Assembly (NCBI GenBank): GCA_021730935.1
Contig: JAKFYJ010000028.1
Span: 1-32,768 of the forward strand
DNA: 32,768 nucleotides
Direction of reading: 5' to 3'
Source of the DNA: Elusimicrobiota bacterium
GTDB taxonomy: Bacteria; Elusimicrobiota; Elusimicrobia; 2-02-FULL-39-32
How positions within the stretch are numbered: the first letter of the stretch is position 1; each line of letters starts with the position of its first letter. Under the pieces are notes generated by a model. The model searched no databases. It was not told the DNA's origin and saw only the letters and a list, made by a program, of their open reading frames with translations. Shown piece after piece: positions 2-13,829 of this stretch. Made by a program: the position numbers and the translations under genes.

Positions 2-3000
2 GTCAGCACGGGCAACACTCTCTTTGGGAATTTGGTCAACGGTTTGGAGCTGGCGGGTGGAACAATTTCTCACGATTATTATTGGCCCAATCTGGACATG
101 CCGTATGTTCCCAGCGGAGTCATTTCAGTCAACAACCGGAACTGGACCATGGATCCGGGAGTGATCGTGAAATCCAAGCCGGGAGGGGCGGCTTTAACCG
201 TTCAGAATGGAACCATGACAGTTGTGGGATCTCAGACGGAACCCATTGTGATGACCAGCATCAGCGATGACTCTGTCGGAGGCGACACCAACAACAATGG
301 GTCCGCGACATTGCCTGGGGCGGGGAATTGGAGCGGAATCGGGATCGGAAATGGATCGGGGTTAAGCTTCATGAAAGCGGGCAACCTGATCCTTAAATAT
401 GCCGGGACTGGCGTGACCATAAACAAAGGCGTGCTCGACATCTCTGTCTCCACCATTACAAACGGCTCTTCCAACGGATTCGCTCTCAGCTCATTCTCCA
501 CCGCAACCATCACAGACTGCCGGATTTCCTCAAACGCGACCGGCATCAATCTTTCTCAATCCACACTCACGATTTCCGGAAGCTTCCTAACCAATAACAT
601 AAGTTATGGCCTTAACATCAACACCCAAGGCGTATTGAATTTGTTCAAAAACCAGGTGACAGGAAATGGAGACAGAGGCGTCTATCTGAACGGCGCGGCC
701 CTGGCGATGATCGATCAAAACAACATTTCATCAAACATCAACTCGGGAATCTACAGCGACCAGCCGATCGGATCAGTCTCCATCACCAACAACACCCTCA
801 CGAACAACAAAAACCAAGCCATCTATTTTGCAAGCCCGGACTTCACTTCGATTTCTATCGCAGGAAATATTCTGTCAGGTAACTCGAGTAATGGCTTTGA
901 ATTGGGAGCAGGAAATGTTCCTCACAATTATTACTGGCCCAAATTTGACCTGCCTTATGTTTCCAATGGCGTGACAGTCTCCCAAGGCAACTGGACCATT
1001 GACCCGGGAGTCATCGTCAAGTCCCGCGGCGGCGGTCTCACCGTTTCCAACGGAACGATGACCGTTTTGGGGACCCCTGCTGAACCCATTATCTTCACGA
1101 GCGTCCATGACGACAGCTTCGCCGGGGACACCAACAACAACAGTTCAGCCACACTTCCTTCCCGAGGAAACTGGTCCGGGCTCTCCATCGGAGACGGAAC
1201 TCGTCCCAGCGTTCTCAAGGCGCAGAACATCCTGATCAAATTTTCCGGCAACAGCATCACCATAAATAAATCACTTTTGGACCTCTCGCGATCCACAATA
1301 GCTTTAAACAGCGGCGACGGCATCAACCTGAGCAATTTCTCCACAGGCACTGTGACAGACTGCCAGATTTCTTCCAACAACGGGGCCGGGTTCGCAGTGT
1401 CTCAATCAACATTGATCTCAACAAACAATACTGTTTCACTCAATTTGGCTCACGGCATTGTTGTGACCAATAAAGGTGTGCTTCAGGATGTTTTCAGAAC
1501 CGTGGTGACGAGGAACACCGGCATTGGCATATATTTGAGCGGAGCGGCGCACGCAAACATTAGAAACAGCACCATCTCTTTCAACACCAGCAATGGCATT
1601 TACAATGACCAGTCGCAGGGAACGCTCATTGTTTCTTCCAACGTGATCCACCACAACAGCGGCGTGGCCGTTTCAGTTCTTGCCAGTTTAAGCACTGTGA
1701 CCGTCAACAACAATTCTGTTTTTTCAAATGCCTCCAATGGATTGGATATCAGCGGAAATGTGTCTGGAGATTATCGGTGGCAGAAACAAGGCATTCCGTA
1801 TGTTTCAAACGGTGTGAACGCTGCGAACGGTCTCTGGACCATCGAGCCCGGAGTCATTGTTAAATCCCGCCCGGGGACAAGCTTAACCATACTCAATGGA
1901 ACCATGACGGCTTTGGGAACCCCCTCGGAACCCATCGTCTTCACCAGCCTTAATGACGACAGTTTTTCAGGCGACACCAACAATGACGGTTCCGTGACAA
2001 AACCTGCGCGCGGGGCCTGGGGAAACATCGGTGTCGGCAACGGAGCAGTGCCGGGCTCCTTCATCGGTCAAAACCTGATCGTGAAATACGGCGATTCCAC
2101 CTTTGATGTGAAAAAAGGCAATCTGGACTTGTTTGCCTCCCTCATTTCAAGCGGCGCGACTTCAGGCATCCGCATGAACACGCAGTCGTCCGTGACGGTG
2201 AATTTGTGCCAGATCACAGGGAATGAACGCGCATTTTTTATGAACAGTTCCGTGGGCTCCGTCCACAAGAGCGTTATTTCGGGCAACTCCTCTTTCGGGG
2301 TGTTAAACGAAACTCCCGGACTCCTGTTCGACGCCACAAACAATTATTGGGGCCACCCTTCAGGCCCGAACCCGCCCGGAAGCGGCGACAAGGTTTCCGC
2401 AGGCGTCAATGTCTCGCCGTTCCGTTCCATTCCTCCGGACTTCTCGCAGACCGACCCGCAGATTTCCTCGGTCACGGCAGCGGGCTCGGCGTTCAGCGGG
2501 GCGTTCCTCAGGAAAGGAATCGTGGACCATGTTCACAATGGCGGCATATCTTTCTCTCTCCAGTTTGACCAGTTTATGGACACGACCGTTCTCCCCGCAG
2601 TGGCCTTCGGCTCCGCGTTCCCTTTCAATCAATATCCCGTGTCCGGCTCCTGGCAAGACCTCAAAGTCTGGTCCGGCACCGCCGCCCTCACAAACTTGAT
2701 CCCGAACGCTCTCTATAATCTCTCCGTTTCCCAGGCCGTGGGACAGAACGCCCAGCGCATGTCTCCCGACAATGTTTATTCCTTTATCCTGGACACGCTT
2801 GCTCCCTCGTCAGCCGCCGTCACGGGAGCCGTCAATCAGCAGGGCGACATCGCGGTCAGTTTCACCCGCAAAGAGCTGAGCTCAGAAGCCGGCTTCATCC
2901 TGGACCGTTCCACCAGCGCGACCTTTGTGCCCTTTGCAACTCTCGCAGACGAGTTTCTGCAAAACACAGTTCAGACTTTGCCTTATCTGGACAAGACCGG

Positions 3001-6000
3001 AATTTCAGGAGATTATTTTTATCGCGTCAGTTTCAGAGACCTTTCCGGAAATGTCGGACCCTATTCCAACTCCATCGTCGTCAACCTGGACACCAATGTC
3101 CCTGTCGCCCCGCAATTCCTGAACGCGCTCTCCGCCGCGGGGGGAACCGTGAAACTTGCCTGGTCCCAGGCGCCCGGAAGCAACTCCGCTTTTTACAGGA
3201 TATACAGGAGCACCACCAGCTCGGATCTCCTCTCCGCTTCCCAGCCCCAGATCAAATTTCGAGTCGCGGACAATGTCGCCAAATTGACCTATACGGACAC
3301 TCCGCCCAAAGACGATCTTTATTATTATGCCGTCACTTCCGTCAATTCGTCATTCAAGGAAAGCGTCCTGTCGGACCCGGCCTATGCTCAGACCGACCGC
3401 GTCCTGCCCACGGCAAAAGTTTCCGTTTCCACGCCCGGAATTTTGGGCCCGGGGAATTATGCCGCAACCCTCACGCTTTCGGAAACCCTTTCCCAGCCGC
3501 CGTTCTTCCTTTTCGCTCCGGCCGGGTCCTCGCCCCAGGCGCTGAACATTTTTGCGCTCTCCGCCACCGTCTGGCAGGCGACCCTCACAGTCACTTCGCA
3601 GATGCCCGAAGGCCAGGGCGCCTTCTCGTTCCAGGGCACAGATTTTTCAGAAAATGTCGGAACAGTGATCACCCAGGGCAAAAACATCACCCTGGACACC
3701 CGCGGCCCCGTCGGACAAGTTTCCTTGTCTTCCGCCTCTCCCATCAGCCAGGGCGAATTCAATCTCGTCCTCACCCTGAACGAAGCTCCCGTTTCCACAC
3801 CCACAGTCTCCGTCAAACCCGCGTCTCGGCCCGCTTTCTCTGTGCCTCTCGTGGCGCTTTCCACGAATTCCCGTTCCTGGTCGGGCCAGGTTTCCGTCAC
3901 GACCCACACCGGCGAAGGTTCGGCAGTTTTTGTCTATAGTTCCACGGATGCTTTCGGCAATGAAGGCGCCATCCTGCAAGGAACAACCTATTTCATCGTT
4001 GACACCGTTGCTCCGGGCCTCCCGCTCGTGCCGCGCGCCAATCCTGCCGCGGGGGGAATCATCAATCTCTCATGGAGCGCTCCCCTGGGAGAGAAAGCGG
4101 TCTCATATCGCGTTTTCAGAAACAACCTTTTCCTCGCCGATGTCCTGCCTCTCTCCGACGGTTCCGGGAAATTCCAGGACCAGACTCCCTCGGACGGACT
4201 TCAGGAATATTCCATCGTCTCAGCGGACATTGCCGGAAACCTCGGGGCCCCCGCAAAAACTTCAGGAATTTCAGATTCCGTGCCGCCTCCCGTTCCGGTC
4301 AACATGTCCTCAACCATCAACGCTTTCGGAGCCGTTCAGGTTTCCTGGTCCGCGGATACCGGAGAAACCCCCGCGTCTTATAAAATTTATCGTTCCACTC
4401 GCCCCATCCTCTCTCTCTCAGGGCTCACGGGACTGAACGCTCTCCCGCCTTTTGTCGATTCTCCCTCTCAGGACGCCACATTCCATTATGTCGTGACAGC
4501 TCTGGATGTCATCGGCAACGAAAGCGCCTTCTCAGCCGAAACTTCCGTGCTTTATGACAAAGCGCCGCCCATCATCACTTTCAAGAATGTGTCCACCGGC
4601 GCGATTTCCAGAACAGATCTTTTTCCCGCTTTCACCGCGACCGACGGAAATCTGGACCCTGCCTCAGTTCATGCCGCCCTCAACGGCACAGATTTCGTTT
4701 CCGGGGACGCCGTCTTCGCCGAAGGGGCCTATACCCTCACGGCTTACGCAACAGATTTCGACGGACACACAACCACAGCTTCAATCCAGTTCTCCATCGA
4801 CAAAACTCCGCCCCAGATTTCGTTCCAGAACATCGCTCCAAACGATGTCCTTTATTCCACCTTCACTCCTCTGATCCTCATCACGGACCTGAACCTCGGA
4901 ACTTCCGCCTTCACGCTCACCAACTCCACCGGCGGTGTTTCCTCTTATAAAGCCGGAACCCCTCTCAAGCAAGACGGCAATTTCACCCTCACCGCGACGG
5001 CGAAAGATTTGCCCGGCAACGCCTCCACGGCAACGGTCAGTTTCCGGCTGGACCTTGAACCTCCAGCGCCCCTGAACCTGAGCGTAAACATCAAAAACAC
5101 CGCCTTCCTCACCTGGGGCCGGCCTGATCAGGATGTCACGGCTTATCGCGTATACAAAAATGGTTCCAGAATCAGTTCCAGCCTGCACCCTGAAATTTTC
5201 TTTGAAGACACGGGTTTTGCCGCCGGAGCCCAGACGGTTTATGAAGTGACCGCCGTTGACGCGCGCGGAGCCGAAGGCGCCGTTGCCAAAGCTGTTGTCC
5301 CCGCCGTCACTTTCACTCTGGACCCCGTGGTTTTGACCCGCGGATTCATTGACCAGATCAATCCCAGGGCGCTCAACGCAAGCACGGCGTCCGTCTCCGT
5401 GAGCGGGTCTCTTGAACTTTTTTCCAACGGCGTTGTCATCTCGCGGTCCAGCATGACGCAGATCTCCGTGAAAGGCGGGAACTTGGGCGACCTCTCAGGA
5501 TATCTTTCCGTCCCTCCGTCGTTGCCCGCGGCCTCTTCCCTCAATGTGAAACTCTTCTTCCCGGCCGCGCCCGGCTCAACGATTTCTCTTGAAGAAACTT
5601 TCCCGGCCTCCGCCGTGGACGCAGTTTCGCCTGTCGTTGAAATTTTGCCGGACCCTCTCGTCCCCGGCACGATCGTTCCCGTCCGCGTGCAGTTTTATAA
5701 CAGAGGTTCCGCCCCTCTCGACATCGTCTCAGCCAAAGTTTCAGGCGGAGCCATTCTTGCCGGAGACATCATCGTCAACCTCAAATCCCAGGCAGGGACT
5801 CTCCTTTCTTCGGGAGGCCTCAAACAAACAGCCGGCGCTTCCGCCGCCGTCATCAGCGGTCAGCAATCTTTCTTCATCACCGTGCCCGGCCATTCAAGCG
5901 TGCTCTTTGACCCCATTCAGGTCCTGGTGCCCAACACGCTTCTCCCCGGACTTGATCTTGAAGCGACCGTGAGCACCCCGTCTTTCAGTCTCCCGTTCCA

Positions 6001-9000
6001 GCCCGTCAAAGCGCCGAGCGGATTTTCCAAAACCCTGCTCCAGCCCGTGATCGCCGATATCCCCTATAAAACCACGGTTTCTCCTCAAAAATCGTTCTAT
6101 GACACAGGGTCCAGCGTCACCCTCACGGGTTTCGCTTTCGACGCGGGCGGTTCCTCCGTTCCCAATCAGGCTGTCGTGGTCCACATCACGAACCAGGGAT
6201 TTGAGCGCAAACTCAATGTCCAGACGGACAATCAGGGGCTTTTCACCGCGGTCTTCAACCCTCTCCCCAACGAGTTCGGATTTTACAGCGTTTTTGCCGC
6301 TCACCCTTCCGTCGTTTCCCAGACGCCTCAATCGTCGTTCACGATCCAGGCCTTCAATTTCCAATACGCCAACTTCAGCGCCGCTGTTTATGAAAACTCC
6401 TCGTTCCAGTTCAACATCGATCTCCTGAACCAGGGCGTGAACACGCTGAACGGTCTCGTGTTCGATCTCATGGCCCTTTCCACTTCCTCAATTGATCTCA
6501 CGCTCAACACTCTCACGGTCCCAAGCGACATCGCCCCCGGTTCCAGAATTTCCCTGCCCTTCACCGTCTCTGCGCCCGCAGGTTTGGGTTCCGCCGATTT
6601 CCTGATCAAGGTGACGGAATCCAACGGATATTCCCGATCCATGCCCATCAAGATCACCGCCGTTCCCGTGCCTGTGAACTTGCCGCCCAATGTTCCGCCG
6701 CCGCCTCCCGTGGTGATCAAGCCCGCTCAGCCCGTCATCACGCCCCAGGTCTTAAATTTCGGCATGCTTTCCGGAACCCTGAGAACTCAGGTCATCACTT
6801 TGAAGAACACAGGCGATTTGCCGTGGAAGAATGTTTCTCTGACCAATCCTGCTTTCCCCTGGGTTGTCATTCAAGGATCAACACTTCTTGGGGACATTCC
6901 CGCCGGAGGCAGCGTTCTTGTCACACTCAGTTTTGAACCGTCTCCAGCCGCCGCAAATGGCGTTTATCCCGCAAATCCCCTCATCCAGGTTTTGTCAGAC
7001 GGGTTCCCTGTTTTTCCTGTCGCCGCTTCTGTTTCCATCACTTCTTCCAAAATAGGGAACGCGGTTTTCAGCGTGATAAATGCCGACAAACCCAAAATTA
7101 ACGGCACAGGAGAGGGCGTTCCCAATGCGACAGTCAGCCTCCAAAGTTTGGATCTTGCAGGGCTCAGCTTCAGCAAGGTCTCGGACGCAAACGGAACCGC
7201 GATCTTCTCAGACATTCCGTCAGGGAATTATTCTTATCGCGCCGGCGCGAGCGGGTTCCAATCTGTCACGGGCAACCTGATCATCGAGTCCGGAATGGAC
7301 AACCTTGTGGAAGCTGTTTTGCCCACATCCATTATCACCTATACATGGACCGTCACCCCCACAACCATCGTCGACCAATATGACATTGTTTTAAGCGTGA
7401 CCTATAAAACCGATGTTCCTGCGCCGATCGTCGCTTTCGATCCGCCGTTTTTTGATGTCGAAATGGACGGAGGCCAGACGGCTTATGGGCAGATCAACGT
7501 CACGAACAACGGCGCGATCCGGATCATCGAATATACGCTTGATTTCAGCGGCGACCCTGAGATCAGCGTCAGCTTGGGAAATGGTTTTATCGATGAGATC
7601 CTGCCTGGACACAGCGTTTCAATTCCCGTCGCGATCCATTTGCAAAGCGCTTCCTGCCACGCGGGAAAAATCAAGCATCAATACAAATATGTCTGCGCCG
7701 CCGGACTGGTCGTCCCGGTCCAGCTTCCGGACATCTCGATCACGGCTGGAAACACTTGCCACAACAAACCCTCTTCAGGCGGGACAGGAGGTTCCGGCAA
7801 TTTTGGTCAGCCGATCGTCAATGGTTCGGTCGTGGGCTATGTTTCCAGCGGAGGCGGTGGGAACGGCAGCGGAAGCGGCGCCGGATCAGGCGGAGGTTCG
7901 AGTTATGGGTTCCCGGGAACTTCTGTTCAGCTCCCCAACCTGCCCAAATTGCCTTTGCCCAAACCTCCGGAATGCAAGGATGAAGATCTGAAGCCCAGCA
8001 CGGACATACAGTGCGATGATTGCGACGGCGTCAACCCCCTCACGGGACTGCTCTCGAAAGCCGCCGGCTGGTTTGGGTTTCCTCCCGGCTCTCCCGAAAT
8101 GGCGGTGCGTCCGGTTTATAGTTCCGGCAACAGGTCCCAGAAGGATCAAGGGGCTGGCTGGTCAGATGTGTTCGGCCAAACATTTCACTTGGAAGTCGCC
8201 ACGGGAACTCTCACTGGAGTTTCTGCGAACGGGACAACTAAGAAATATATTTTCGTCGGCGCCAACGCTCAGGGAGGCGAATATCTGAACCCCGCGGACA
8301 CTTATGAATCGGTCCGCAGACAGAACTTTCTGCAAGGCATTCCCCAGAGCATGCTGCAGACGTTCAAAGACGGTTCCTCCATCCTTTATAAAATCGCCAA
8401 CGGCGCGCCCCACACCTATCTGGTTTCCGAAATGACAGATTCCAACGGCAGCAAAACCGTAATCTCCCGAGATGTCTTTGGGCGGATCGAACAGGTGACA
8501 GATGTCCACGGCCGCAAACTCACGTTCACCTATAACGGCGTTTCAGGGAAAGTCACCAAGATCACAGACGACACAGGCCGGTCCGTGTCTTATAATTATG
8601 ATCTCCAGGGCAACAAGATCGACGAAGCCGATGCCAACGGCGACAGCACATCCTTTGAATATGACTCTGAAGGCCGCATGACCCAGGTTCATTTTCCCAA
8701 CGGCGGAGTCCGATCCTTCGCTTATTCCAGCTCCACAAGCGGAAGAGTGGTCAGCGAGTCCCAGGAAGGCAATATAGAAACAAAAACCTATGCCTATGAC
8801 GACAACGCCCAGACCACAGAGGTGGACAGCGCGGGCCGGGGAAAGTTCACCTATCTCTGGATTGAAAGCAACGGTCTAAAAAAACCTTTCGGCGTGATGG
8901 ACCCCGACGGGCGGACGACGGCGTTCACTTATGACGAGAACATGAACCTGACGTCTGAAACAGATTCGAACAGCCATAAAACTCAATATTCTTATGATGA

Positions 9001-11440
9001 GAAAGGAAATGTAACTTCCATCACGGGACCCAGCGGCCAGGTGACGCAGATCACTTATGAACCCAACTTCAACAAGCCCTCAATCGTGACTGATCCCAAA
9101 GGCAACCGCACCCAGTTCACCTATGATCCGAAAGGCAACCTCATCCGGATTCAAGACGCCGCCAATAATATCACCAAGATGGCTTATGACGGACAGGGCC
9201 ATCCCGTGACAATCACTGACGCTCTCGGCCATGTGACCTCCATGGTTTATAACAATCGCGGCGCCGTCATCTCCGTCACAGACCCCCTCGGGCGCAAATC
9301 GCAATTTTCTCAGGACGCTCTTTCCAGGGTGACTTCAGTGACCGATGCGCTGGGCAAGTCCAGCCATTTTGATTATGACGCTGTGGGCAACCTTCTCAAG
9401 ACGCTGGACGCGGTCAGCGGAGAAACCAGGTTTGGATATGTCGCCGGGCGCCCCAACCGCCTTCTTGCCGATTTGACCGACGCCAAGAACCAGACCACGA
9501 ACTTTGAATATGACAAGATGGCCCGCCTGACCAAAGTGACGAACCCCGCAGGTCAGCCGAGAGTCATGACCTATGATACCCGCAACAACTTGAAGTCCGT
9601 CAAAGACGCCAAGGGGCAGACCCTCACCTTGAATTATGATTCCATCGACCGGCTGACCAGCAAAGGGATGCCGGAAGGAACCGTCAACTATACTTATGAC
9701 GCCGCCAGCAACCTCACCAAAGTGACGCATCCCAACGGAAGCCAGATGACGATGTTTTATGACGCGTCCGACCGCGTGACGCAGACGGTCCAGCGTCTCC
9801 CGAACGGATACACCGTCACTCTCAATTATGCCTATGACGCCAACGGCAACCGCACCAGCATGACCACGCCGTGGGGCAACTTCACCTATTCTTATGATCA
9901 GCTGGACCGTCTCAAAACGATCACGAACCCTGATTCAAGGATATTCAATTTCACTTATGACGGGCTGGGCCGCAGAACCAAACTTGCTTATCCCAACGGC
10001 ATCGAAACCAATTACGCTTATGACGCCGCGAGCGAGCTCACCGGCATCGAGCATAAAAACACATCAGACGGCACCGTGGTTGCCTTCGCGAATTATGCTT
10101 ATGACGACGCAGGAAACAGGGCGAGCATGGAAGATGTGAGCGGAACCCACGATTACGGCTATGACGATCTGCACAGACTCATAACAGCCGATCATCCCGC
10201 CGGAAGCTCCGTGAACACAAAGAACGAATTCTTCGCTTATGATTCCGTGGGGAACCGAACATCAGACGCCGAGCGGACAAATCAGACTTATGACAACGCG
10301 AACCGCCTCCTCTCCGATTCCGAGAATTCCTATGACTATGACGCCAACGGAAACCAGACAGAGAAAACGGTTCTGACAAACAACACAAAGATCAAATATG
10401 CCTATAACTCCGAGAACCAGCTCGTCAAAACGATTTTGCCCAACGGCACAACGGTGGAATGCAAATATGACGAGTTCGGCAGACGAGTGGAAAAGTTCGT
10501 CGGAAACAATTTCGGCGGCAACGCTTTTGGATATGTTTATGACAACGAAGATATCCTTGTAATCCTGAACCCCGACAACAGCATCCGCGTGATCTTCACT
10601 CACGGCCCCGGAATCGACGAGCCCCTCATGATGAAGGACCCCAATTTTGGCAACACCACTTTGCACGCCGACGGCCTGGGTTCCATCGTGGCGCATGTGA
10701 GTTCCAGCGGGAGCGTGGTCGAGAGGATGGAATATGAGGCCTATGGAACGCCCAAGTTCATCGATGTGAGAGGAGCGGTCCCCGTGATTTCCTCCGCCTC
10801 ATTCACTTTCAGTCCGTATGCGTATACGGGGAGGGAGTGGGATGGGGAGATGGGGTTGTATTTCAATCGACATCGTTATCGCGATCCCATTACTGGCAAT
10901 TTTATAAGTGAAGATCCTTTGAGCTTTGCTTCAGGAGATACTAATCATTATGCGTATGTTTTGGAAAATCCATTAAACTGGAATGATCCTGATGGCATGA
11001 AGCGAGGCGAGCTGATATATTTTTATTCAACAAAAGATGAAGGCCCTAATTTTCCTCATCATGTTGGATTTGATCAAGGAAACAATCAAATACTTATGCT
11101 GACAGGGGGGGCAATATCCTCAGTTTATCTTAGCGATTATTTAAATATGATACCGCATTTTGGAGTTCTTGGTTATGCAGATATAACTAATTATATCAAT
11201 CCGAATGTATTTGAAAATAATATTTATGATTTGAAGGATGAGCTCGAATCAAACTTTAAAGATTGGCAGCCTTCTGGCACAGTTTGCGTAGATGTAATGA
11301 ATGCTGGGTTTGGAGACTCATACAGTAAATTGAAAAATGACATGCAAAGAATGTTCGGAAAGCAGAATGATCCTCTGTTTTGGAGGAGGAATTCAAATTA
11401 CTTAAAATTTTTTAAAAGAACCGGGAGGTTCAGAAAATGA
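2..11440 (+). CDS. Giant Rhs/YD-repeat polymorphic toxin, 5'-truncated by window edge
   Basis: Large Rhs-family surface or secreted toxin carrier, at least 3812 residues. The frame is open to the left edge, and its first residues match the end of a beta-helix module, so the TTG at 32 is not the true start. Domains, numbered from the codon at 2: parallel beta-helix modules (1-800) closing with NNYWGHPSGP (about 781); a train of Ig and fibronectin-III-like domains (about 820-2220); a proline linker (about 2221-2240); Ig-like and carboxypeptidase-regulatory-like domains (about 2247-2583); a Gly/Ser linker (about 2589-2637); the Rhs start (VNPLTGL); about 30 YD repeats (about 2813-3520); and the Rhs core with the PxxxxDPxG motif (DPDG at 3662-3665). 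The last about 147 residues are a variable tip. In known Rhs proteins the YD repeats form a shell holding the toxin, which is freed by self-cleavage near DPxG; that is assumed here. The DNA turns sharply AT-rich after about 10863. Confidence 0.93.
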   Translation, partial: VSTGNTLFGNLVNGLELAGGTISHDYYWPNLDMPYVPSGVISVNNRNWTMDPGVIVKSKPGGAALTVQNGTMTVVGSQTEPIVMTSISDDSVGGDTNNNGSATLPGAGNWSGIGIGNGSGLSFMKAGNLILKYAGTGVTINKGVLDISVSTITNGSSNGFALSSFSTATITDCRISSNATGINLSQSTLTISGSFLTNNISYGLNINTQGVLNLFKNQVTGNGDRGVYLNGAALAMIDQNNISSNINSGIYSDQPIGSVSITNNTLTNNKNQAIYFASPDFTSISIAGNILSGNSSNGFELGAGNVPHNYYWPKFDLPYVSNGVTVSQGNWTIDPGVIVKSRGGGLTVSNGTMTVLGTPAEPIIFTSVHDDSFAGDTNNNSSATLPSRGNWSGLSIGDGTRPSVLKAQNILIKFSGNSITINKSLLDLSRSTIALNSGDGINLSNFSTGTVTDCQISSNNGAGFAVSQSTLISTNNTVSLNLAHGIVVTNKGVLQDVFRTVVTRNTGIGIYLSGAAHANIRNSTISFNTSNGIYNDQSQGTLIVSSNVIHHNSGVAVSVLASLSTVTVNNNSVFSNASNGLDISGNVSGDYRWQKQGIPYVSNGVNAANGLWTIEPGVIVKSRPGTSLTILNGTMTALGTPSEPIVFTSLNDDSFSGDTNNDGSVTKPARGAWGNIGVGNGAVPGSFIGQNLIVKYGDSTFDVKKGNLDLFASLISSGATSGIRMNTQSSVTVNLCQITGNERAFFMNSSVGSVHKSVISGNSSFGVLNETPGLLFDATNNYWGHPSGPNPPGSGDKVSAGVNVSPFRSIPPDFSQTDPQISSVTAAGSAFSGAFLRKGIVDHVHNGGISFSLQFDQFMDTTVLPAVAFGSAFPFNQYPVSGSWQDLKVWSGTAALTNLIPNALYNLSVSQAVGQNAQRMSPDNVYSFILDTLAPSSAAVTGAVNQQGDIAVSFTRKELSSEAGFILDRSTSATFVPFATLADEFLQNTVQTLPYLDKTGISGDYFYRVSFRDLSGNVGPYSNSIVVNLDTNVPVAPQFLNALSAAGGTVKLAWSQAPGSNSAFYRIYRSTTSSDLLSASQPQIKFRVADNVAKLTYTDTPPKDDLYYYAVTSVNSSFKESVLSDPAYAQTDRVLPTAKVSVSTPGILGPGNYAATLTLSETLSQPPFFLFAPAGSSPQALNIFALSATVWQATLTVTSQMPEGQGAFSFQGTDFSENVGTVITQGKNITLDTRGPVGQVSLSSASPISQGEFNLVLTLNEAPVSTPTVSVKPASRPAFSVPLVALSTNSRSWSGQVSVTTHTGEGSAVFVYSSTDAFGNEGAILQGTTYFIVDTVAPGLPLVPRANPAAGGIINLSWSAPLGEKAVSYRVFRNNLFLADVLPLSDGSGKFQDQTPSDGLQEYSIVSADIAGNLGAPAKTSGISDSVPPPVPVNMSSTINAFGAVQVSWSADTGETPASYKIYRSTRPILSLSGLTGLNALPPFVDSPSQDATFHYVVTALDVIGNESAFSAETSVLYDKAPPIITFKNVSTGAISRTDLFPAFTATDGNLDPASVHAALNGTDFVSGDAVFAEGAYTLTAYATDFDGHTTTASIQFSIDKTPPQISFQNIAPNDVLYSTFTPLILITDLNLGTSAFTLTNSTGGVSSYKAGTPLKQDGNFTLTATAKDLPGNASTATVSFRLDLEPPAPLNLSVNIKNTAFLTWGRPDQDVTAYRVYKNGSRISSSLHPEIFFEDTGFAAGAQTVYEVTAVDARGAEGAVAKAVVPAVTFTLDPVVLTRGFIDQINPRALNASTASVSVSGSLELFSNGVVISRSSMTQISVKGGNLGDLSGYLSVPPSLPAASSLNVKLFFPAAPGSTISLEETFPASAVDAVSPVVEILPDPLVPGTIVPVRVQFYNRGSAPLDIVSAKVSGGAILAGDIIVNLKSQAGTLLSSGGLKQTAGASAAVISGQQSFFITVPGHSSVLFDPIQVLVPNTLLPGLDLEATVSTPSFSLPFQPVKAPSGFSKTLLQPVIADIPYKTTVSPQKSFYDTGSSVTLTGFAFDAGGSSVPNQAVVVHITNQGFERKLNVQTDNQGLFTAVFNPLPNEFGFYSVFAAHPSVVSQTPQSSFTIQAFNFQYANFSAAVYENSSFQFNIDLLNQGVNTLNGLVFDLMALSTSSIDLTLNTLTVPSDIAPGSRISLPFTVSAPAGLGSADFLIKVTESNGYSRSMPIKITAVPVPVNLPPNVPPPPPVVIKPAQPVITPQVLNFGMLSGTLRTQVITLKNTGDLPWKNVSLTNPAFPWVVIQGSTLLGDIPAGGSVLVTLSFEPSPAAANGVYPANPLIQVLSDGFPVFPVAASVSITSSKIGNAVFSVINADKPKINGTGEGVPNATVSLQSLDLAGLSFSKVSDANGTAIFSDIPSGNYSYRAGASGFQSVTGNLIIESGMDNLVEAVLPTSIITYTWTVTPTTIVDQYDIVLSVTYKTDVPAPIVAFDPPFFDVEMDGGQTAYGQINVTNNGAIRIIEYTLDFSGDPEISVSLGNGFIDEILPGHSVSIPVAIHLQSASCHAGKIKHQYKYVCAAGLVVPVQLPDISITAGNTCHNKPSSGGTGGSGNFGQPIVNGSVVGYVSSGGGGNGSGSGAGSGGGSSYGFPGTSVQLPNLPKLPLPKPPECKDEDLKPSTDIQCDDCDGVNPLTGLLSKAAGWFGFPPGSPEMAVRPVYSSGNRSQKDQGAGWSDVFGQTFHLEVATGTLTGVSANGTTKKYIFVGANAQGGEYLNPADTYESVRRQNFLQGIPQSMLQTFKDGSSILYKIANGAPHTYLVSEMTDSNGSKTVISRDVFGRIEQVTDVHGRKLTFTYNGVSGKVTKITDDTGRSVSYNYDLQGNKIDEADANGDSTSFEYDSEGRMTQVHFPNGGVRSFAYSSSTSGRVVSESQEGNIETKTYAYDDNAQTTEVDSAGRGKFTYLWIESNGLKKPFGVMDPDGRTTAFTYDENMNLTSETDSNSHKTQYSYDEKGNVTSITGPSGQVTQITYEPNFNKPSIVTDPKGNRTQFTYDPKGNLIRIQDAANNITKMAYDGQGHPVTITDALGHVTSMVYNNRGAVISVTDPLGRKSQFSQDALSRVTSVTDALGKSSHFDYDAVGNLLKTLDAVSGETRFGYVAGRPNRLLADLTDAKNQTTNFEYDKMARLTKVTNPAGQPRVMTYDTRNNLKSVKDAKGQTLTLNYDSIDRLTSKGMPEGTVNYTYDAASNLTKVTHPNGSQMTMFYDASDRVTQTVQRLPNGYTVTLNYAYDANGNRTSMTTPWGNFTYSYDQLDRLKTITNPDSRIFNFTYDGLGRRTKLAYPNGIETNYAYDAASELTGIEHKNTSDGTVVAFANYAYDDAGNRASMEDVSGTHDYGYDDLHRLITADHPAGSSVNTKNEFFAYDSVGNRTSDAERTNQTYDNANRLLSDSENSYDYDANGNQTEKTVLTNNTKIKYAYNSENQLVKTILPNGTTVECKYDEFGRRVEKFVGNNFGGNAFGYVYDNEDILVILNPDNSIRVIFTHGPGIDEPLMMKDPNFGNTTLHADGLGSIVAHVSSSGSVVERMEYEAYGTPKFIDVRGAVPVISSASFTFSPYAYTGREWDGEMGLYFNRHRYRDPITGNFISEDPLSFASGDTNHYAYVLENPLNWNDPDGMKRGELIYFYSTKDEGPNFPHHVGFDQGNNQILMLTGGAISSVYLSDYLNMIPHFGVLGYADITNYINPNVFENNIYDLKDELESNFKDWQPSGTVCVDVMNAGFGDSYSKLKNDMQRMFGKQNDPLFWRRNSNYLKFFKRTGRFRK
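71..2410 (+). repeat. Three tandem beta-helix modules of about 281-284 codons in the Rhs protein
   Basis: Modules begin at about 71, 923 and 1766. Each opens with a YYWP-like stretch (degenerate YRWQ in the third). Then come a PYV.NGV segment, a W.(I/M)(D/E)PGVIVKS motif, a TM..LG..(S/A)EPI block and a (D/N)DDS..GDTNN segment, followed by loosely repeated beta-helix coils rich in N, S and T. The codons before position 71 match the end of such a module, so at least one more copy probably lies to the left. The third module is shorter and runs into an NNYWGHPSGP cap, a typical end of NosD-like right-handed parallel beta-helices. The copies are diverged at DNA level, so the duplications are old. 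Confidence 0.85.
8440..10560 (+). repeat. YD (Rhs) repeat array, about 30 degenerate copies
   Basis: About 30 coding repeats of roughly 20-23 codons follow the pattern YD..G(N/R)(L/V)....D..G....F.Y. Examples are YDEKGNV, YDPKGNL, YDANGNR and YDGLGRR. Some copies are degenerate, for instance YVAGRPN and SQDALSRV. In TcC and Rhs structures such repeats coil into a hollow beta-shell around the C-terminal toxin. The recurring tat-gac codons make short direct repeats in the DNA, which are coding and not CRISPR-like. Confidence 0.9.
10338..10863 (+). repeat. Rhs core direct repeat, copy 1 (within main rhs gene)
   Basis: This roughly 526-bp segment recurs 2002 bp downstream at 12340-12865 with no indel. 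I count about 31 mismatches by eye (about 94% identity), including one perfect 134-bp block at 10562-10695. Twelve mismatches fall in a single patch at about 10696-10718. Identity starts at the YDANGNQ repeat and stops abruptly inside the codons for the GLYF motif, about 120 bp before the PxxxxDPxG codons, where base composition also shifts to AT-rich. Confidence 0.95.
11423..11428 (+). promoter_or_regulatory. Ribosome binding site of the exported immunity candidate
   Basis: GGGAGG lies 8 bases before the ATG at 11437, inside the last codons of the rhs gene. It fixes the start of the 255-residue protein and implies translation coupled to the toxin gene. Confidence 0.75.
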
Positions 11441-12204
11441 AATTAAAAATAATGATGTTGATAACTGGCATTTTATTTTATTTTAGCTTGGGTCATGCAG
11501 AAAATGATTACTCTTGTAAATATTCCTCTGTAGTATTTAATAATGAGTATATTTCATATATAGATAGTGAATCTAAGATGCATTTTTATGATTGCAATAA
11601 AAATAATTCTCATGATTTAAATGTGAAATATAAAATCAAGGCACTAGAAATGTGTTCTAAATATCCCTTCATATCATACATAGGATACACGGATAATCCT
11701 CAAGATGAAGAGCATTATTTTACATACGATATTGAAGATAGAAAATTGCATGAAATGAGCGATACTCAAATGCATTGGTCGTTATCGGGGAACTACACTT
11801 ACTATTTAGATCGAAATCATGAGTCTCTTATCTTGATTAAGACACAATTACTTAGGCCCTTTCTAAAAAATCGGAACAGTAGTGTACATCAAATAACAAT
11901 AAAAGGTATCCCACTAGGGTTTATACGCCCAATATTATGGGTTGGCGATAATCTTATATACGCTAACGAATTTGAGGAAACATCGGAATGCTGGGGTGTA
12001 TATAATTCAGGCAAGGAAGAAAATTATTTGATTGGTTGTTGTGGCCATAATACGGATTTAGCTTGTAATAATGAGCTTAAAAAAGATCAAAACATTATTA
12101 AAGCATACATATCCAAAGCAGAAAAATATCAGTTAAAAAAAATAAATAATGATTTTTTTAGTGAAATTAAACGATTAAAAGTTTTTAATACCAAATCGAA
12201 ATAG
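11437..12204 (+). CDS. Exported protein, presumed immunity to the main Rhs tip
   Basis: 255 residues, family not recognised. The N-terminus is a clear signal peptide: Lys at 2 and 4, a hydrophobic core, and a likely cut after GHA at about residue 21. The rest is rich in aromatic and beta-forming residues with recurring YISYID / FISYIG / YTYYLD strands, which suggests a beta-propeller-like fold (inference). A Cys-rich patch (GCCGHNTDLAC) lies near the C-terminus. The ATG overlaps the rhs stop as ATGA and has a good ribosome binding site, the usual arrangement of an Rhs immunity gene. The gene is strongly AT-rich, like the tip before it and unlike the housekeeping genes, which suggests the pair was acquired together. 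An exported immunity protein would fit a toxin acting in the periplasm or on the cell wall. The immunity role rests on position alone. Confidence 0.65.
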   Translation: MKLKIMMLITGILFYFSLGHAENDYSCKYSSVVFNNEYISYIDSESKMHFYDCNKNNSHDLNVKYKIKALEMCSKYPFISYIGYTDNPQDEEHYFTYDIEDRKLHEMSDTQMHWSLSGNYTYYLDRNHESLILIKTQLLRPFLKNRNSSVHQITIKGIPLGFIRPILWVGDNLIYANEFEETSECWGVYNSGKEENYLIGCCGHNTDLACNNELKKDQNIIKAYISKAEKYQLKKINNDFFSEIKRLKVFNTKSK

Positions 12205-12339
12205 GGGACTTGTCAACAAATTAACCAAATCAAACTCAAAAAATAAATTAAATGAACTTTAAAAGCAATTTAGCTTTGTGGAGTGAAAGTGATTTTGACC
12301 CGGATTTTTCACCGGTGCTGTTGTCTGTCATTGATCCTG
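12205..12339 (+). other. AT-rich junction between first immunity gene and orphan Rhs module
   Basis: The first 47 bases are AT-rich and non-coding. From 12252 the reading frame is open and encodes about 29 residues unlike any Rhs repeat (MNFKSNLALWSESDFDP...) before it enters the repeated core at 12340. I see no ribosome binding site before the ATG, no convincing promoter, no inverted repeats and no transposase remnant. It may be the scar of an earlier cassette. Confidence 0.5.
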
Positions 12340-13499
12340 ATGACGCCAACGGAAACCAGACTGAGAAAACGGTTCTGGCAAAAAACTCAAAGATCAAATA
12401 TGCGTATAACTCCGAGAACCAGCTCATCAAAACGGTGTTGCCCAACGGCACGACGGTGGAATGTAAATATGACGAGTTCGGCAGACGAGTGGAAAAGTTC
12501 GTGGGCAACAATTTCGGCGGCAACGCTTTCGGATATGTTTATGACAACGAAGACATCCTCGCGATCCTGAACCCCGACAACAGCATCCGCGTGATCTTCA
12601 CTCACGGCCCCGGAATCGACGAGCCCCTCATGATGAAGGACCCCAATTTTGGCAACACCACTTTGCACGCCGACGGCCTGGGTTCCATCGTGGCGCACGC
12701 GGACCTGACCGGAACCGTGATCGAGAGGATGGAATATGAGGCCTATGGAACGCCCAAGTTCATCGATGTGAGAGGATCGGTCCCCGTGATTTCCTCCGCC
12801 TCATTCACTTTCAGTCCGTATGCGTATACGGGGCGGGAGTGGGATGGGGAGATGGGGTTGTATTTTTATCGAACTCGTACTTATGATTCTGGCATTGGGA
12901 GATTTATGACGGAGGATTCCATTGGCTTTGCCAGTGGGGATGAGAATTTTTATGCTTATGCTTTGGATAATCCTGTGAATTATATTGATCCTACAGGAGA
13001 ATTTTGGAATGTAATTATCGGGGCTGGAACAAGTGTTGCGGCAGGTTATGTGATTGCAAGGCTAACAGATCAATGTTATGGCTGGAAAGATGTCGCGGTT
13101 GATGCGGCATTGGGTGCAACTGGGACAATTTTGATAGAAGAGTTAAGTAAAACATACAAGGTATGGAAATTAAGAAAGCTTGCGAATGAAAGAGAGTTGG
13201 AATATATAGGGACAAAAGGTTATACAGAAATCTGGCAGAAGGGCAAAGAAACAATAAAGATTAAGTTTCGTGGAGGAATTAGTGATGGCCTTCATCCAAA
13301 TAGTAAGGTCCCACGTTTTTCTTACAGATTATCTGATGGAATATTTAAGAATCCATTTTCAGGTGAGATTGGGCAGGGTCCTAAAAGTGCGCTTGGACAT
13401 ATACCACTTGGAATAACCGAAAGTGATTCCGCTCTAATTGGTTCAGTTATGGGAGGAATTGATTCAGCATCAGGAGGGTGTCACAATGGCTGTAAATAG
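12252..13499 (+). CDS. Orphan Rhs core fragment with alternative C-terminal toxin tip
   Basis: 415 residues. Residues 1-29 are unrelated filler. About 30-205 are a near copy of the main gene's Rhs core, and about 206-250 are the end of the core with PxxxxDPxG (DPTG at 246-249). The rest is a new tip. It opens with a small hydrophobic Ala/Gly-rich stretch (about 250-300), typical of a pretoxin segment, then a charged region and a C-terminal part with NPFSGEIGQGP and GHIPLG. The ending is Cys-containing (CHNGCK). I do not recognise the toxin family. There is no signal peptide, YD shell or ribosome binding site before the ATG, so it is more likely a silent donor tip than an expressed protein. 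Its ORF is intact, which argues for selection or recent arrival. A different presumed immunity gene follows 9 bp later. Confidence 0.8.
   Translation: MNFKSNLALWSESDFDPDFSPVLLSVIDPDDANGNQTEKTVLAKNSKIKYAYNSENQLIKTVLPNGTTVECKYDEFGRRVEKFVGNNFGGNAFGYVYDNEDILAILNPDNSIRVIFTHGPGIDEPLMMKDPNFGNTTLHADGLGSIVAHADLTGTVIERMEYEAYGTPKFIDVRGSVPVISSASFTFSPYAYTGREWDGEMGLYFYRTRTYDSGIGRFMTEDSIGFASGDENFYAYALDNPVNYIDPTGEFWNVIIGAGTSVAAGYVIARLTDQCYGWKDVAVDAALGATGTILIEELSKTYKVWKLRKLANERELEYIGTKGYTEIWQKGKETIKIKFRGGISDGLHPNSKVPRFSYRLSDGIFKNPFSGEIGQGPKSALGHIPLGITESDSALIGSVMGGIDSASGGCHNGCK
12340..12865 (+). repeat. Rhs core direct repeat, copy 2 (orphan module)
   Basis: Second copy of the core segment at 10338-10863, 2002 bp away. 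The orphan frame is in register with the main gene across the repeat, so a crossover anywhere within it would fuse the main Rhs shell to the orphan tip in frame and delete the first tip with its immunity gene. The longest perfect block is 12564-12697 (134 bp). After 12865 the DNA diverges although the protein stays Rhs-like. Confidence 0.95.
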
Positions 13500-13503
13500 G
13501 AGG
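13498..13503 (+). promoter_or_regulatory. Strong ribosome binding site of the second immunity candidate
   Basis: A perfect AGGAGG overlaps the stop codon of the orphan tip gene and lies 5 bases before the ATG at 13509. It supports translation of the small downstream gene even if the orphan tip is silent. Confidence 0.8.
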
Positions 13504-13508
13504 ACATA

Positions 13509-13829
13509 ATGTTTAAAGTGCAACAACCTCAGGGTTTAATAAGTGTTTTGTTAAATAAAAATGCAGAATTTGGGGATCGCGACGATGCTGCAATCGATTT
13601 AAGCGGATATGATGAGCCAGAAGCGGAGCTGGCATTAATAGAAATTGGGTCGAATGAAAATGAAGATGAAGACTTGTTGGACACATGTGGTGGGTCAATA
13701 GGTGAGATTTGGTCTAGAAAAAGACAAGTAAAACAAGAAGTGTTAAAACATTTGAAAGGACGCGCTTTAGAAAGTGCTATTGCAATGATTCGAGCAAGAA
13801 AACCTGAGCTTCTTAATGATCAAAAATGA
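13509..13829 (+). CDS. Small acidic protein, presumed immunity to the orphan Rhs tip
   Basis: 106 residues, no signal peptide or membrane segment, so cytoplasmic. The N-terminal half is very acidic (SNENEDEDLLD) and holds an IDLSGYDEPEAELAL segment. The C-terminal half is helical with GGSIGEIW and an ALESAIAMIRARKPELL ending. The pattern recalls HEAT-like immunity proteins with an acidic helical surface, but I cannot name the family with confidence. It sits 9 bp after the orphan tip, with a perfect ribosome binding site. A cytoplasmic acidic immunity protein would fit a basic toxin acting in the cytoplasm, such as a nuclease (inference). Keeping this gene expressed would protect against sister cells deploying the same tip. 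Confidence 0.65.
   Translation: MFKVQQPQGLISVLLNKNAEFGDRDDAAIDLSGYDEPEAELALIEIGSNENEDEDLLDTCGGSIGEIWSRKRQVKQEVLKHLKGRALESAIAMIRARKPELLNDQK

Follow-up and report, generated by a model that had tools for sequence, protein, structure and literature searches.

The window analysed here is a stretch of 32,768 nucleotides at positions 1 to 32,768 of contig JAKFYJ010000028.1, from the draft genome of an Elusimicrobiota bacterium (GCA_021730935.1; class Elusimicrobia, GTDB lineage 2-02-FULL-39-32). It carries an apparent Rhs polymorphic-toxin locus, in which a giant rhs gene ending in a variable tip, and the candidate immunity gene behind it, are succeeded by a second module made up of a fragment of the same core, a different tip and a different immunity candidate. 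This layout, with an Rhs gene and its tip 1 and immunity candidate 1 ahead of an in-frame core fragment with tip 2 and immunity candidate 2, was proposed in an initial annotation made from the sequence letters and holds throughout. Successive modules of this kind recur across the class.

Organization of the Rhs locus

The giant gene (2..11440; like all window features below, on the forward strand) specifies 3812 aa within the window, its 5' end being absent because the window begins at base 1 of the contig. The predicted protein runs from a right-handed beta-helix through weak immunoglobulin (Ig)-like and CarboxypepD_reg regions into RHS/YD repeats, the Rhs-associated core and finally tip 1. 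Pfam and NCBIfam searches recover RHS_repeat (5e-84, in 18 stretches), TIGR01643 (3e-74), Beta_helix (2e-30), NosD (9e-17), TIGR03696 (1e-17) and CarboxypepD_reg, and the Ig-like Big_13 and Big_3_3 fall below their cut-offs. The giant hence has the RHS/YD repeat array of Rhs polymorphic toxins. It also has their Rhs-associated core: TIGR03696 scores above its cut-off in both core copies of the locus, which end in NDPDG and IDPTG ahead of the variable tips.

The core copy inside the main gene (10338..10863) is repeated at 12340..12865 inside the orphan open reading frame (ORF), at an offset of 2002 bp, with 495 of 526 bases identical (94.1%, 31 mismatches) and no indel, just as had been claimed. 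The perfect 134-bp block reported within it is likewise exact (10562..10695, partner 12564-12697), and the repeat holds further perfect blocks of 56, 56 and 31 bp. The two copies are in register: the main frame runs from base 2 and the orphan ORF from 12252, and 12252 less 2002 gives 10250, which lies in the main frame. All nine exact blocks of at least 20 bp shared by the two core copies agree in frame. Where the initial annotation needs refinement is the tip boundary; its anatomy stands, but the Rhs core extends beyond 10863. About 130 bp of weaker homology follow, the core closing with DPxG-type motifs at 10996 (NPLNWNDPDG) and 12998 (NPVNYIDPTG), and the real tips therefore occupy 10997-11437 and 12999-13496.

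Tip 1 comprises 147 aa (10997..11440 with its stop codon) and tip 2, the orphan tip, 166 aa (12999..13499 with its stop codon). As anticipated, they are different: the best blastp match between them has an E value of 0.21 over 13 aa. Each is directly followed by a separate small gene with a strong Shine-Dalgarno (SD) sequence, which agrees with the earlier assignment of one immunity candidate to each tip, immunity being a predicted role. Immunity candidate 1 (11437..12204, 255 aa) overlaps the stop codon of tip 1 and has a signal-peptide-like start by eye. Immunity candidate 2 (13509..13829, 106 aa) is acidic and, by eye, lacks a signal peptide. Signal peptides throughout this work were called by a hydropathy scan and by eye.

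The orphan ORF (12252..13499) is an intact frame of 415 aa consisting of a 29-aa leader unrelated to the core, the core fragment and tip 2, and it lacks an SD sequence. It has the marks of an orphan module, namely a fragment of the same core that is homologous to and in frame with the main gene and that ends in an unrelated tip. Its leader MNFKSNLALWSESDFDPDFSP is not signal-peptide-like. That the leader might be a dispersed or mobile element was considered and ruled out for the window, its DNA being single-copy in the genome. A homologous 5' leader (73-87% identity) does precede two orphans in G218 (L038, minus strand, before oriented positions 9702 and 13370) and one in G064 (L041:10918-10995); here and below, G labels denote genomes, L labels fetched contig loci, and G000 is the genome of the window. 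That leader is joined to differently positioned core starts, and in the three genomes searched it is present only at those orphans.

The 31 mismatches between the core copies are unevenly spread. Twelve of them fall in a divergent 23-bp patch (10696..10718, partner 12698-12720) flanked by near-identical blocks, and a longest identical run of at least 134 bp has a probability of 0.003 under random placement. With the patch set aside this probability climbs to 0.048, for which reason we dropped a strong claim of gene conversion for the 134-bp block; what the repeat offers is a modest mosaic signal. Between the orphan and main copies, nine codons differ synonymously and six non-synonymously over 10338-10561, against approximately 47 synonymous and 175 non-synonymous sites. 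The differences are mostly synonymous relative to the numbers of sites, which indicates that the orphan core is not decaying.

Predicted tip functions, translation signals and delivery

In phmmer searches of the PDB, a stretch at the start of tip 1 that covers only the His strand (GELIYF...HHVGF, extending to GELIYF...HHVGFDQGNNQ) gave non-significant matches to the cell-wall hydrolases 9ubf (E 0.16) and 4hpe (E 0.46), which we take to be members of the NlpC/P60 family. The other two of the four best matches are equally weak and point to a dehydrogenase (E 0.18 and 0.27). A Cys-bearing stretch comes after the His-strand stretch, an order that would be permuted relative to NlpC/P60. Tip 1 is thus a possible circularly permuted NlpC/P60-like peptidase, an idea in keeping with the secreted-looking immunity candidate 1. 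In Pfam, no NlpC/P60 match was obtained for tip 1, the best being Mad3_BUB1_I_2 (E 0.006, below its cut-off). Single-sequence AlphaFold 2 models of tips 1 and 2 were unusable, with predicted local distance difference test (pLDDT) scores of 35 and 32.

Besides the window itself, 340 genomes of the phylum yielded only weak matches to the main tip (E 0.018 to 0.07). Tip 2, assignable to no known family, found no relative in any search made, and among 294 phylum genomes it matched only the window's own; tblastn against plasmids and scans of viral contigs recovered no relative of either tip. The orphan protein as a whole matched 1109 plasmid records, all below 60% identity (10 of the 1109 being listed), and a search of genome contigs with it found one distant Rhs (L005, 34%). 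Neither immunity candidate matched a known immunity family above cut-off; in 231 class genomes, candidate 1 had no relative at E 0.01, and candidate 2, besides itself, had two weak matches only (E 0.004 and 0.008).

The SD duplex energies in the window separate the immunity starts (-11.0 and -10.2 kcal/mol) from the ATG of the orphan (+1.6 kcal/mol, the best of its four candidate starts reaching -3.4), against a background at random positions with a median of -2.4, a 10th percentile of -5.9 and a 5th percentile of -7.2 kcal/mol. At the loci of the class, the 10th-percentile value of -5.9 is reached by the first start of 2 of 14 orphans versus 11 of 24 immunity candidates, the latter being ORFs selected by length and position only. 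Since its start has no SD sequence and it carries no export signal, the orphan is probably not translated. Both immunity genes are probably translated, and the orphan tip would stay silent until recombination places it on the giant. The pattern in the window fits statements on other systems that orphan tips usually lack initiation signals and that orphan immunity genes can be expressed (PMC3150448, PMC3967940).

Complete relatives of the giant (G187, G064, G114) start with a signal-peptide-like sequence, as do several shorter main genes of the class. The type VI secretion sheath protein VipB/TssC (PF05943), expected with a type VI-delivered Rhs effector, was not found in the window's own genome (95% complete); among 14 control genomes the profile matched E. 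coli only. On both grounds the giant is probably exported by Sec rather than by a type VI system, and it is probably used against competing bacteria.

Recurrence of successive modules across the class

The initial annotation had proposed comparing the locus across related genomes, and doing so reveals recurrent in-register modules, tips whose position differs from genome to genome and an orthologous locus with a varying number of modules. TIGR03696 occurs in 36 of 235 class genomes (35 above cut-off), compared with 2 of 14 control genomes. The window and 66 fetched loci contain 83 core-end hits in these 36 genomes, partial hits included; those with a truncated model end were excluded from the end-distance figures. 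Two or three successive modules on one strand occur in 13 of the 36 Rhs-bearing genomes, on one contig each and including the window. These remain from 15 contigs with at least two core-end hits after removal of L067, in which the second hit covers just a partial frame of 53 aa, and L108, where both hits lie in one ORF.

Nine of the 13 contigs (those of G309, G218, G160, G064, G315, G231, G234, G120 and the window) have exact blocks common to their modules, the longest ranging from 28 to 1302 bp, and in all nine every exact block keeps the first two modules in the same frame. An intact in-register second module reaching its tip is present in 8 of the 13, that is, in eight of the nine with exact blocks. 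Beyond these 13, one contig of G219 and one of G224 break off within a second copy that is in frame. In G309, G234 and G120 the contig begins inside the first module, so that calling it the main gene is an assumption there. The 1302 identical bases belong to G309 (minus strand of L037, oriented 1324-4779), whose first and second modules nevertheless end in different tips; they suggest that the modules were duplicated or converted very recently, or else an effect of assembly.

The Rhs modules of the class lie at an orthologous locus in several families and also at other Rhs loci. Downstream of the modules in the window are two markers of the orthologous locus: a conserved rhodanese-domain protein (13892..15037; Pfam Rhodanese, 5e-36), with a membrane-like N-terminus and an HEGGH motif by eye, and a 1650-aa Ig-domain protein (15034..19986; Big_7, 3e-60; Por_Secre_tail, 6e-6). 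The rhodanese and Ig pair also stands downstream of Rhs core ends in G187, G224, G218, G093, G236 and one G219 contig. It is present in part in G095, where the core is split over two frames, and G091 retains the rhodanese only. Homologous giants (37-43% identity over about 1600 aa) lie upstream of the pair in G218, G187 and G224, and similar giants occur in G064 and G114. The locus formed by giant, tips, rhodanese and Ig protein thus recurs across families with one to three modules: one was detected between giant and rhodanese in G187 and in G224, two in the window and three in G218, and G093 has at least two ahead of the rhodanese. G001, a genome of the same genus, has a different, lipoprotein-like gene, an immunity candidate, directly upstream of the pair at the contig end (first 700 bases of L121, minus strand). 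The varying number of modules and the changed upstream gene in G001 point to a tip region that turns over between flanks that stay.

Movement of tips and shell-less mini-Rhs genes

Of the 83 tips, 76 were long enough for comparison (at least 40 aa). They include 18 related pairs from different modules at E <= 1e-3 (19 rows less a self-match of L108), some within one genome and some partial. The tip of a 2609-aa gene in G219 and a 214-aa orphan in G089 share 68% identity over 84 aa, and the tip of a 1306-aa gene in G315 is 34% identical to the tip of a 443-aa second-module ORF in G112, the genes downstream of both being related as well. A main-gene tip in G231 matches a 76-aa fragment in G112 (5.6e-37), and the first-module tip of G309 matches two broken frames of 42 and 71 aa in G120 (9.6e-25 and 1.1e-8). 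Some related tips hence sit on the main gene in one genome and are orphaned or decayed in another. The downstream ORFs are related in 4 of 13 tip pairs, which were chosen by hand (12 of them from the 18) and feature one module in several pairs.

A further set of Rhs genes in the class does without the shell. Nine small ORFs (194-358 aa) in eight genomes, here termed mini-Rhs, combine a signal-peptide-like start with a tip and, between them, a short core stub of about 40-75 aa taken mostly from the RYYD/E...GRFLQEDP segment. The scan excluded ORFs truncated at the 5' end of a fetched stretch. The nine mini-Rhs ORFs are located at L104:6802-7404, L105:6358-6954, L108 (minus strand, oriented 1743-2327), L094:6007-6597 and L049:2052-2645 and in L096, L099, L100 and L091. 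Eight of the nine have a strong SD sequence (-8.3 to -10.3 kcal/mol), the exception being that of G001 (-4.2). The mini-Rhs loci of G315 and G276 match at 92.6% DNA identity along 1327 bp that end 129 nt inside the gene; they then carry different tips, and similarity returns (84.7% over 360 bp) around the gene end and the downstream ORF. We read this as the replacement of a tip between conserved flanks in a shell-less gene. The G315 tip in question (L105:6358-6954) matches the Pfam family SAA (serum amyloid A protein; 1.1e-24). A search of the open-access literature found no description of mini-Rhs genes, which is no proof of absence. Their signal-peptide-like starts raise the question of whether an Rhs tip needs its shell.

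A proposed silent reservoir tip and its alternatives

Taken together, these features make it probable that the Rhs polymorphic-toxin locus of the window keeps tip 2 as a silent reservoir, in register with the main core and loaded onto the giant by homologous recombination. Both immunity genes would be translated and the orphan tip would not. Recombination across the 526-bp repeat would exchange tip 1 for tip 2 in frame, probably after a duplication as proposed for Salmonella, and would remove the 2002 bp that contain tip 1 and its immunity gene. The giant carrying the new tip would then probably be exported by Sec and turned on competing bacteria. The in-frame main protein with the orphan tip that the initial annotation expected from a single crossover follows from the frame arithmetic, and a similar repeat in Salmonella LT2 does recombine (PMC3967940). 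The origin of the locus was most likely the reverse event, in which incoming DNA, comprising a core fragment, a tip and an immunity gene, displaced an older tip downstream.

Several observations weigh against this interpretation. Neither a recombinant junction nor a recombinant read or strain variant was seen for the window locus. An in-frame stop codon is followed by an ATG in the orphan, and weak translation may start there. The contrast in SD strength also varies across the class: when the best printed start is used, 4 of 14 orphans and 14 of 24 immunity candidates reach -5.9 kcal/mol. Neither tip had a significant match to a toxin family in Pfam, NCBIfam or the PDB, and the toxicity of the tips and the protection by the immunity genes in the window are predictions. 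The mismatch clustering that would signal past conversion is weak without the 23-bp patch (P 0.048). Elsewhere in the class, the second-module frame of G160 shifts between core and tip, and the third copy in G120 is broken, with three blocks in frame followed by one out of frame. In G251 (L042) and G297 (L048) the core repeats between modules are weak (74-76%) and lack any 20-bp exact block; in G112 (L039) and G093 (L046) no repeat reaches 80 bp, with only 363 and 57 contig bases preceding the first core end. Finally, 9 of the 13 tip pairs showed no related downstream gene; for one of them (L084) the reason is that the contig stops just past the tip.

The broken frames in G120 (both the third copy and the 42- and 71-aa frames that match the G309 tip) and the frameshifted orphan of G160 are what one would expect if tip 2 were a decaying relic, a displaced former tip without further role whose immunity gene is perhaps still useful against toxin-carrying kin. 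We consider this unlikely for the window, where the 415-aa frame is intact and the core differences are mostly synonymous relative to sites, and second modules are intact in 8 of the 13 contigs. A less probable possibility still is that the orphan acts as an independent small toxin, translated from the ATG at 12252 and exported by some other route, so that no exchange is needed. The mini-Rhs genes provide a precedent for this in their core stubs and tips with their own signal-peptide-like starts and, in eight of nine, strong SD sequences, but the orphan of the window has neither, given the nature of its leader and an SD energy of +1.6 kcal/mol.

The draft state of the genome (96 contigs) and the 134-bp perfect block, which could confuse a short-read graph, also leave a very slight chance that an assembler joined the main genes of two strains with different tips. 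A false join of this kind would not create the 135 bp of unique DNA, made up of the gap after the immunity stop codon and the new leader, that precedes the second core copy. This unique DNA between the copies on one contig, their differences at 31 sites and the recurrence of the arrangement in other genomes render such an artefact unlikely.

Extending the reservoir interpretation from the window to the class, we tentatively suggest, at slightly less than even confidence, a two-tier Rhs arsenal, no type VI sheath being detectable in the window's genome. In one tier, Sec-exported giants at an old orthologous locus would be re-armed from silent in-register orphan tips; in the other, self-translated and self-exported mini-Rhs proteins would consist of a signal peptide, the last 40-75 aa or so of the core and a swappable tip. 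If so, an orphan could either re-arm the giant or turn into a secreted toxin that acts by itself. The loci of the class constitute natural replicates in which the frequency of tip swaps, the direction of displacement and survival after losing the old immunity gene can be addressed; along with the mini-Rhs variants, they are the parts worth following up.

Comparison with known systems

In the survey of polymorphic toxins by Zhang et al. (2012, PMC3482391), tip variation is attributed to recombination with cassettes of tip and immunity gene, and Sec-dependent RHS toxins and NlpC/P60 toxin domains are listed. The window differs in that neither of its tips is assignable to a toxin family by profile search, and in its long in-register repeats, a description of which was not found in the available excerpts of that paper.

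Poole et al. (2011, PMC3150448) described orphan cdiA-CT/cdiI and rhs-CT modules, in which most tip fragments lack initiation signals and the immunity genes can be expressed, and put forward a reservoir model with recombination possibly following tandem duplication. Both those systems and the window have tip and immunity modules downstream of the main gene. The window differs in being an Rhs locus and not a two-partner secretion system of contact-dependent growth inhibition, in its tips, and in having an orphan ATG without an SD sequence.

By anatomy, the closest known system is the rhs-main/rhs-orphan locus of Salmonella Typhimurium LT2 (Koskiniemi et al. 2014, PMC3967940), a precedent that bears out the earlier remark that displaced Rhs tips are known in enterobacteria. 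There, a full-length rhs gene and its immunity gene are followed by an orphan tip whose core portion is 95% identical over 522 bp, compared with 94% over 526 bp in the window, and which has an immunity gene of its own. In LT2, recombination joins this tip to the main gene with loss of the first immunity gene, and recombinants were detected; the orphan lacks translation and export signals, and there is evidence for contact-dependent growth inhibition by its tip (PMC3967940). The window, known from its sequence, differs from LT2 in its giant with beta-helix and weak Ig-like regions, its secreted-looking immunity candidate 1 and the absence of any VipB/TssC match. The orphan-tip mechanism is hence already known from Salmonella, and what is new is the class-wide recurrence of successive modules in 13 of 36 Rhs-bearing genomes. 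Re-arming from orphan tips, for which Salmonella provides the experimental evidence (PMC3967940), would thereby extend to a class with an Rhs core less than 60% identical to every plasmid-borne Rhs found.

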